This document shows, piece by piece, positions 8,161-9,695 of a stretch of DNA of 64,000 nt; position 1 is the stretch's first letter, and each line of letters begins with the position of its first letter. A program made the translations under genes and the position numbers. This stretch comes from Candidatus Gastranaerophilales bacterium (GTDB lineage: Bacteria > Cyanobacteriota > Vampirovibrionia > Gastranaerophilales > Gastranaerophilaceae): NCBI GenBank assembly GCA_944324315.1, contig CALUVW010000007.1, forward strand, positions 1-64,000. Reading direction: 5' to 3'. The notes below the pieces were generated by a model. It worked only from the letters and a program-made list of their open reading frames with translations, searched no databases and was not told where the DNA came from.

Positions 8161-8219
8161 ACAAATTTAGTGTTATTTTTACTATATTAAGTTTTGTAAA
8201 ACCCTTGCTATAAAAGGGA

Positions 8220-8248
8220 TTGAAGTATTTGTTAAAATATGTTACAAT
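8220..8248 (+). promoter_or_regulatory. sigma-70-type promoter for the NAGPA gene
   Basis: A -35 TTGAAG (8220-8225), a 17-bp spacer and a -10 TACAAT (8243-8248) are visible. Transcription starting near 8255 would give an unusually long leader of about 150 nt before the ATG at 8406. Confidence 0.65.
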
Positions 8249-8254
8249 AATAGT

Positions 8255-8405
8255 AGGAAGTTCCTGAAAATGGTTAACTCTTAGAGAAAATAGAATATTT
8301 TTAAATTTTCAATCAGGGTAAAATCAGGTTTCCGATGAGTGTTATTCCCCACCCCACTCTTAAATCAAAAAGGTATCCGGTTACTCCAAGTTAAGAGGTG
8401 ACATT
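8255..8405 (+). ncRNA. structured 5' leader, candidate cis-regulatory RNA (riboswitch-like)
   Basis: Four helices can be drawn by eye. Helix A pairs 8256-8267 with 8324-8333 (10 bp with a 2-nt bulge). Helix B pairs 8273-8283 with 8392-8402 (10 of 11 pairs) and covers the ribosome binding site GAGGTG; its 5' arm lies inside helix A, so A and B together make a pseudoknot. Helix C pairs 8357-8363 with 8391-8397 (7 bp, perfect), also covering the ribosome binding site. Helix D pairs 8337-8341 with 8355-8359 and competes with C. These mutually exclusive pairings resemble a translational switch. I do not match it to a known riboswitch class. Confidence 0.45.
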
Positions 8406-9695
8406 ATGGATACGTTGATTTATCATGCTGAAAATTATGAGCTGAAAAAATTAGCAGAAGTTATTGTAAATATTTCAATAATAGGGGTTATTGTTTTGTG
8501 TCAGGCGCTGCTGCCAATTCATGCATCAAATAATAGAATTGCACAGGTAACAGCACCTGACTTTGATACAGGACAATTAAAAGCGAAAATTTTAAATGAA
8601 ATTTCTCCTGAAGTTAGACGGAATAATTTTAATACAATGATCAGCGAAAAATACCCGAAGGCTGTAATAGTTGATGTTGCAGACGGTATAAAACACATAA
8701 AGCTTACAAAATATTATAACGGGAGACCTGTGAGGATTAATGTTGTAGAAGTTGATATGAAACTTGCCGAAAATTTTGAATTAACTCCTGCTCTTTCATC
8801 AGATTCTACTCTGAAAAGCAGAAGATCTATTTCAACTATTGCTAAAAATAATAATGCTATTGTTGCTTTAAACGGAACATATTTTAAACCTCAGACGGGA
8901 GTTCCTCTCGGTACATTAATGATTAATGAAAAAATGTATACAGGTCCTATTTATGACAGAGTCGCTATGGGAATTTTTGATGACGGATTTGCTCTTGCAA
9001 GAATTAGCCTTGATGCTGTTATTAAAGGGAGCGGTAAAACCATAAAAGTTAATAATATTAATCAGCCTAGAATGCTTTCTACGCATGTTATAATATACAC
9101 TCCGGATTGGGGAAAATTCTCGCCTTCCGCCCCAAAATACGGCGTTGGATTACAAGTGTCGGAAGGTAAAATTACAAAAGCATCTGCAAATGCAGTTGCT
9201 ATTCCTAAAAACGGTTATGTAATTTCAGGACCGAAGAGTGTTTTATATGCATTATTGGACAAAAAAGATGTAGAACTCGATATTAAAACCTCCCCTGAAT
9301 GGAAAGGCGTTAAGCATATAATTAGCGGCGGTCCGTATTTGGTTAAAGACGGAGAAGTTTATGTTGATATGACGGCGCAAAAACTTCAGTCAATAGGGGG
9401 CAGAAACCCCAGAAGTGCAATAGGTTATACATCTGATCGTAATATTATACTGGTTGCAGTTGACGGGCGCGAAGGAAGTTCAATCGGCATGACTCTGATG
9501 GAACTTGCAAATTTTATGAAATCAGCAGGCTGTATTGGCGCAATTAATCTTGATGGCGGCGGTTCGACTGTTATGTATGTTAAAGGTAAAGTAGTTAATA
9601 AACCGCAAATGACAGGCGGTATACCGTTATCCAATGCAATTATATTATCAGAAAAAACTAAATCCGCAAATTCAGGCAATATTTCCGAAATTTAG
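8406..9695 (+). CDS. phosphodiester glycosidase (NAGPA-domain) exopolysaccharide-type protein
   Basis: This 429-residue protein has one N-terminal membrane segment (about residues 22-40) and then a C-terminal NAGPA / DUF2233-type domain (Pfam PF09992). Evidence includes NGTYFKPQTGVPLG (about residue 157), ISGGPYLVKDG, RNPRSAIGY and the signature LDGGGSTVMYV (about residue 381). The family hydrolyses phosphodiester-linked sugars and is often found with surface polysaccharide genes, so an extracytoplasmic role on a sugar phosphodiester is likely. The specific substrate is unknown. It is preceded by a long structured leader that can hide its AGAGGTG ribosome binding site and is followed by a clear terminator. 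Confidence 0.88.
   Translation: MDTLIYHAENYELKKLAEVIVNISIIGVIVLCQALLPIHASNNRIAQVTAPDFDTGQLKAKILNEISPEVRRNNFNTMISEKYPKAVIVDVADGIKHIKLTKYYNGRPVRINVVEVDMKLAENFELTPALSSDSTLKSRRSISTIAKNNNAIVALNGTYFKPQTGVPLGTLMINEKMYTGPIYDRVAMGIFDDGFALARISLDAVIKGSGKTIKVNNINQPRMLSTHVIIYTPDWGKFSPSAPKYGVGLQVSEGKITKASANAVAIPKNGYVISGPKSVLYALLDKKDVELDIKTSPEWKGVKHIISGGPYLVKDGEVYVDMTAQKLQSIGGRNPRSAIGYTSDRNIILVAVDGREGSSIGMTLMELANFMKSAGCIGAINLDGGGSTVMYVKGKVVNKPQMTGGIPLSNAIILSEKTKSANSGNISEI

Follow-up and report, generated by a model that had tools for sequence, protein, structure and literature searches.

Riboswitch classes usually regulate several related genes. The described systems closest to the leader analyzed here are the preQ1-I riboswitches, the smallest riboswitches known. 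In the type II representative of Thermoanaerobacter tengcongensis, which we used only as a lead, a stem and a C at the specificity position are accompanied by an A-rich linker of about 12 nt and a GG; its loop differs from that of our leader, and its GG belongs to the Shine-Dalgarno (SD) sequence. The specificity C of preQ1-I is preceded by A in types II and III and by U in type I. For type III, a UU after the P1 5' strand, an AC before the P1 3' strand, a poly(A) stretch, an AAGG and CC-GG pairs have been described (PMC11625349, PMC10622847).

The window examined in this study, by which we mean the whole stretch of 64,000 nucleotides, is contig C7 in the assembly of a 1.88 Mb genome whose closest named relatives are metagenome genomes of gut Gastranaerophilales (Melainabacteria). 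A first-pass annotation of its letters had described a riboswitch-like leader of no known class before a NAGPA glycosidase gene. Comparison with relatives makes it virtually certain that a conserved, structured leader is present here and is unlisted in Rfam. At the sequence level, the arrangement of promoter, leader and gene, the stem S1, the start-codon helix and the conservation across most genera of one family are all well supported. The features of the locus are as follows.

8220-8248, + strand: sigma-70-type promoter TTGAAG-N17-TACAAT, conserved in relatives
8256-8267/8324-8333, + strand: helix A, a 5' hairpin with a variable tip, adjoining the predicted transcription start (minimum-energy fold, relatives)
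8336-8341, + strand: 5' strand of stem S1, GAGUG (8337-8341, hairpin D of the first-pass annotation), with an optional outer pair 8336/8360
8342-8354, + strand: C-rich loop UUAUUCCCCACCC; U8342 and C8354 invariant, CCCC at 8347-8350 nearly so
8355-8360, + strand: 3' strand of S1, CACUC, with the outer partner (comparison of relatives)
8360-8371, + strand: A-rich linker (L3) of 12 nt ending in AAAAA (linker lengths in relatives)
8372-8373, + strand: GG, conserved in all; proposed pseudoknot partner of loop CC (8349-8350)
8373-8378, + strand: 5' strand of the start-codon helix P3, GUAUCC, pairing with GGAUAC, with compensated variants
8380-8384, + strand: 5' strand of the inner P3 helix, GUUAC, pairing with GUGAC
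8395-8402, + strand: SD sequence GAGG with the 3' strand of the inner P3 helix, GUGAC (8398-8402) (sequence, comparison)
8406-9695, + strand: gene for the NAGPA-domain (PF09992) protein of 429 aa, directly after the leader (Pfam E 1.9e-38)
8408-8413, + strand: 3' strand of P3, GGAUAC, comprising the last base of AUG, codon 2 and two bases of codon 3

Comparison with preQ1-I and other RNA families

The core surrounding hairpin D is nearly invariant and reads GAGUGUUA-N-CCCC-N-CCACUC-(11-12 nt, ending AAAAA)-GGU. It resembles preQ1-I type III, as found in the Escherichia coli yhhQ leader (PMC10622847), in its short stem, its pyrimidine-rich loop starting with UU, the C immediately preceding the stem's 3' strand, a variable linker, four to five A, an AAGG and possible CC-GG pairs. 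Two features of preQ1-I are present in the core: a U that directly follows the P1 5' strand, and an A-rich L3 whose 4-5 A precede the P2 3' strand. On the other hand, the leader has a longer loop (usually 13 nt) than type III, lacks a U that could pair with the A preceding GG, carries an AAGG that is not the SD sequence, and possesses an additional conserved start-codon helix. It also precedes a glycosidase gene instead of a gene for queuosine synthesis or transport: all 138 downstream ORFs tested encode NAGPA relatives (46-100% identical).

The Rfam covariance search, run at the gathering score and at lax E-values, yielded no significant match to the motif, preQ1-I included, which agrees with the first-pass view that no known class fits. 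RF00522 (preQ1-I) was not listed for the 43-nt core slice at E<=10, and none of 117 family genomes contained a match over its gathering cut-off of 39 bits. Among Rfam families, the 43-nt core scored best with TMV_UPD-PK3 (RF01072), at 12.4 bits against a cut-off of 34; the two have a similar layout and share an AGUG stem, CACU, UAAAUC, the A-rich linker and a G run. TMV_UPD-PK3 is an H-type pseudoknot of plant-virus (eukaryotic) 3' UTRs, and a functional relation is not expected; as an independent though weak sign, the sub-threshold match points to an H-type fold.

A true preQ1-I riboswitch of divergent type, responding to preQ1 itself, would account for the U, C, poly(A) and AAGG that the leader has in common with this class (PMC11625349, PMC10622847). 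Moreover, genes for tRNA-guanine transglycosylase and QueA occur in the genome. Such an identity nevertheless seems quite improbable in view of the RF00522 results, the AAGG lying outside the SD sequence, and a target gene without a known queuosine tie; we know of no link between NAGPA glycosidase genes and queuosine. QueA was likewise found in all eight motif-less genomes tested, and the presence of the pathway therefore does not track the motif, while the queuosine-precursor transporter (PF02592) occurs in only one of 20 genomes. Filing the leader as a preQ1 riboswitch is unwarranted; its working mode may be preQ1-like.

Conservation and covariation of the leader

Taken alone, the window leader has an unexceptional folding energy relative to shuffled sequences (z -0.87), and the case for structure therefore rests on comparison. 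For the anatomy of the core, 124 unique cores were counted. The extraction pattern demanded some core letters, so that the invariance is partly by construction; gene-anchored leaders, which are free of this condition, show the same invariant core. S1 is GAGUG/CACUC, with AAGUG/CACUU in three sequences. The U directly after its 5' strand is found in 124/124 cores and UU in 120/124, and CCCC is present in the loop of 122, both exceptions retaining CC. The C directly before the 3' strand of S1 is likewise universal (124/124); it was part of the extraction pattern and is also found in all gene-anchored leaders. Its preceding base is A in 73 cores, C in 49 and G in two. The linker measures 12 nt in 116 cores and 11 nt in eight, ends in AAAAA in 122 of the 124, and is followed by GGU.

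Hairpin D, which had been proposed from the window alone (8337-8341/8355-8359), proved to be the most conserved stem of the leader. Its optional outer pair is a U-U mismatch in the window. Across 126 leaders it is A-U, U-A, G-C, C-G or G-U in 59, against a shuffled mean of 45.6, and none of 2000 shuffles scored as high; these shuffles ignore relatedness, and the eight changes between paired types on the gene tree are the better guide. A compensatory change from G-C to A-U was observed at the first pair of S1; this and the compensatory change at the fifth pair of P3 stem from one clade. The loop CC and the GG are always present and neither side varies, giving no covariation for a pairing that comprises only two pairs.

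The core loop accepts inserts of up to about 90 nt, and the flanking U and C stay invariant. In L164 and L170 it has grown to about 90-100 nt, and CCCC is retained together with the invariant bases on either side. In genus g32 (L163, L166, L168 and L169), an extra hairpin-capable stretch separates CCCCA from the C that precedes the stem. In genus g42 (L161 and L165) the core deviates: its loop contains CUCC or AACC, and AAAAC takes the place of AAAAA ahead of GG. These two natural variants might be informative about ligand specificity. Two other loop pairings were considered and discarded: that of a loop UAU with GUA (8373-8375), as the loop spacing varies, and a kissing contact of loop CCCC with the SD sequence, judged by eye, in which CACC/GGUG fits the clade of the window and fails in L106-L108.

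Directly downstream of the core, P3 (GUAUCC/GGAUAC) is intact in every gene-anchored motif leader whose start was read, with the variants GUAUUC/GAAUAC in L168 and L169, GUAUUC/GGAUAC in L166 and GUAUUC/GAAUAU in L163. The fifth pair thus appears as C-G, U-G or U-A across relatives, and the protein start shifts from MDT to MNT. This constraint on the first codons explains why the motif-bearing genes encode proteins starting with MDT (136/138) or MNT (2/138); most motif-less relatives begin otherwise, e.g., with MSI, MLN, MIN or MYA. In the inner helix GUUAC/GUGAC, 90% of cells are paired and two pairs changed on both sides; it is missing in L101 and weak or absent in L106-L108. L112 and L113 (genomes G045 and G039) carry insertions of tens of bases or more in the loop of the start-codon hairpin, with the core intact; these insertions resemble small repeated elements.

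The claimed helix A was recovered in the minimum-energy fold, and its hairpin is retained in relatives: the stem sequence differs between clades, yet the hairpin persists. A hairpin closing near both ends was found in 85/111 relatives compared with 29/111 shuffled sequences, and the mean minimum free energy of the region is -13.5 kcal/mol in relatives versus -8.5 kcal/mol when shuffled. Helix A is missing in L101 and L110. The first-pass annotation had further proposed that helices B and C serve as alternative arms hiding the ribosome binding site, forming a translational switch, and had named lack of conservation as the point on which its helices would fail. This lack was found for B and C, and A and D escape it. 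Helix B reaches a duplex energy with the SD zone of -6.39 in relatives and -6.48 in shuffles (n=103), its 5' arm falling in the variable tip of helix A, and 58.5% of cells are paired in helix C versus 59.1% in shuffled controls; neither arm pairs better than its controls. The B/C switch is consequently not upheld, whereas the riboswitch-like leader survives as a structured, conserved leader with compensatory changes. The invariant C-rich loop, the A-rich linker, the GG and the helix 8373-8378/8408-8413 were absent from that model, and the H-type core (8337-8373) together with the start-codon helix provides better candidates for a switch than B and C. Conserved structure between promoter and start codon, with compensatory changes, is what characterizes a cis-regulatory structured leader, and both are found here.

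A passive element, namely an mRNA stabilizer or RNA thermometer with a hairpin over the start codon that tunes translation ligand-free, would typically also contain a 5' hairpin near the transcription start and a start-codon helix. We regard this explanation as improbable: such roles require helices and not an invariant loop and linker, and the predicted SD occlusion is weak. By predicted folding, SD accessibility is 0.455 against 0.419 in the upstream-shuffled control, i.e., no lower, and that of the AUG is lower (0.337 versus 0.444). It is extremely improbable that the leader is a leader-peptide attenuator. The small ORF MSVIPHPTLKSKRYPVTPS (8335-8394, with its ATG at 8335), which overlaps the core, is uninterrupted in the window and some relatives, but the ATG occurs in only 57/126 leaders, and merely 27 of those stay open for at least 15 codons.

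Distribution, promoter and target gene

All 23 orthologues of the genus carry the core GAGUGUUAUUCCCC... or near variants in their oriented upstream regions, and 21 further orthologues with about 49-74% protein identity have it upstream of the gene as well. Alignment A2, which comprises 51 sequences, contains 38 invariant columns. At a threshold of E<=0.01, covariance model R1, searched against 286 genomes of the order, matched 168; these all belong to one family, and nearly always there is one copy per genome. At least one of these matches is false (G214, whose NAGPA gene lies elsewhere without the motif). No further copy was found in the genome of the window. Model R2, restricted to the 38-nt core (aptamer only), was searched against 386 genomes of the phylum, and its strong matches were confined to the same family. 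Out-of-family matches reached only E 1e-3 to 1e-2, which is chance level over 386 genomes; the six weak ones inspected all lack the start-codon helix, and L305, the best of them, falls within an ORF. Three pattern matches in viral contigs were also rejected, all lacking the A-rich linker and GG.

Five genera (g26, g29, g30, g31 and g33) possess the gene with a related promoter and a short leader without the motif, which can thus be regarded as a module of its own. In six genomes (four of g15, G068 and G102) the motif is missing, as is any close copy of the gene (E<=1e-60). At least three changes on a quick gene tree are needed to account for where the motif is present.

The promoter proposed in the first-pass annotation is present, the -10 region TGTTACAATAGTAGTAG is kept in relatives, and transcription is predicted to start at approximately 8255. 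The first-pass annotation had also named a transcription start after 8333 as a point that would refute it; the conservation of the promoter argues against such a start. Upstream of the promoter, at 8168-8200 and in relatives, there is a second conserved element, roughly AGTGT-N6-AC..TATT(T/A)AGTTTTGTAAA. This element and the -10 box are often separated by 48-50 or 57-61 nt; the two ranges differ by about one DNA turn, as would suit a transcription-factor site. In the motif-less genus g26, a related stretch, AGTGT...TACC, is also present.

The NAGPA (phosphodiester glycosidase) domain forms the C-terminal part of the encoded protein, for which Slr0280 (5h3k) was the nearest solved chain found. 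That the motif stands before one gene only counts against a riboswitch. A structured leader bound by a protein or a trans-acting RNA (e.g., via the C-rich loop), with the partner setting glycosidase translation, would suit this single-gene association and the near-invariant loop and linker equally well. We consider such a partner rather unlikely: no candidate is known, and loop inserts of up to about 90 nt between an invariant U and C fit a compact pocket better.

Proposed mechanism and significance

An H-type pseudoknot is suggested by the stem of 5-6 bp, the C-rich loop, the near-constant A-rich linker and the GG that follows. In our judgment, the case for a cis-regulatory leader that acts on glycosidase translation and contains a preQ1-I-like H-type pseudoknot is evenly balanced, and the same even balance applies to its sensing of a metabolite; the pseudoknot pair, the ligand and the direction of switching are what we infer. 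Transcription would begin near 8255, and helix A would form first, as a spacer or stabilizer. The core would then fold into a small H-type pseudoknot in which loop CC pairs with GG 8372-8373 and the 12-nt A-rich linker lies along S1. By analogy with preQ1-I type III, U8342, C8354 and the poly(A) stretch may form a pocket, in which C8354 would recognize a guanine-like ligand by its Watson-Crick face. The GUAUCC-GGAUAC pairing directly downstream would enclose the SD sequence and the AUG in a hairpin. G8373 would be common to the pseudoknot and this hairpin, and the state of the core could therefore alter hairpin opening.

A new riboswitch class is possible, although we hold it only tentatively and somewhat short of an even balance; in it, an H-type pseudoknot would form a preQ1-I-like pocket, sense a guanine-like or other metabolite and control a cell-envelope or exopolysaccharide phosphodiester glycosidase of gut Gastranaerophilales, and the first codons of the gene would then belong to the expression platform. 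Our literature search found no paper joining Gastranaerophilales and riboswitches. Rfam has no family for the motif. It is a well-defined orphan that has a single target gene and a minimal pseudoknot core, and its conservation extends over most genera of a family of non-photosynthetic, host-associated bacteria related to cyanobacteria. If a small molecule is bound, the leader would exemplify a new specificity of the preQ1-I scaffold, or else its layout would have evolved independently, and in either case it would offer a clue to the metabolite that governs a putative cell-surface glycosidase in these bacteria.
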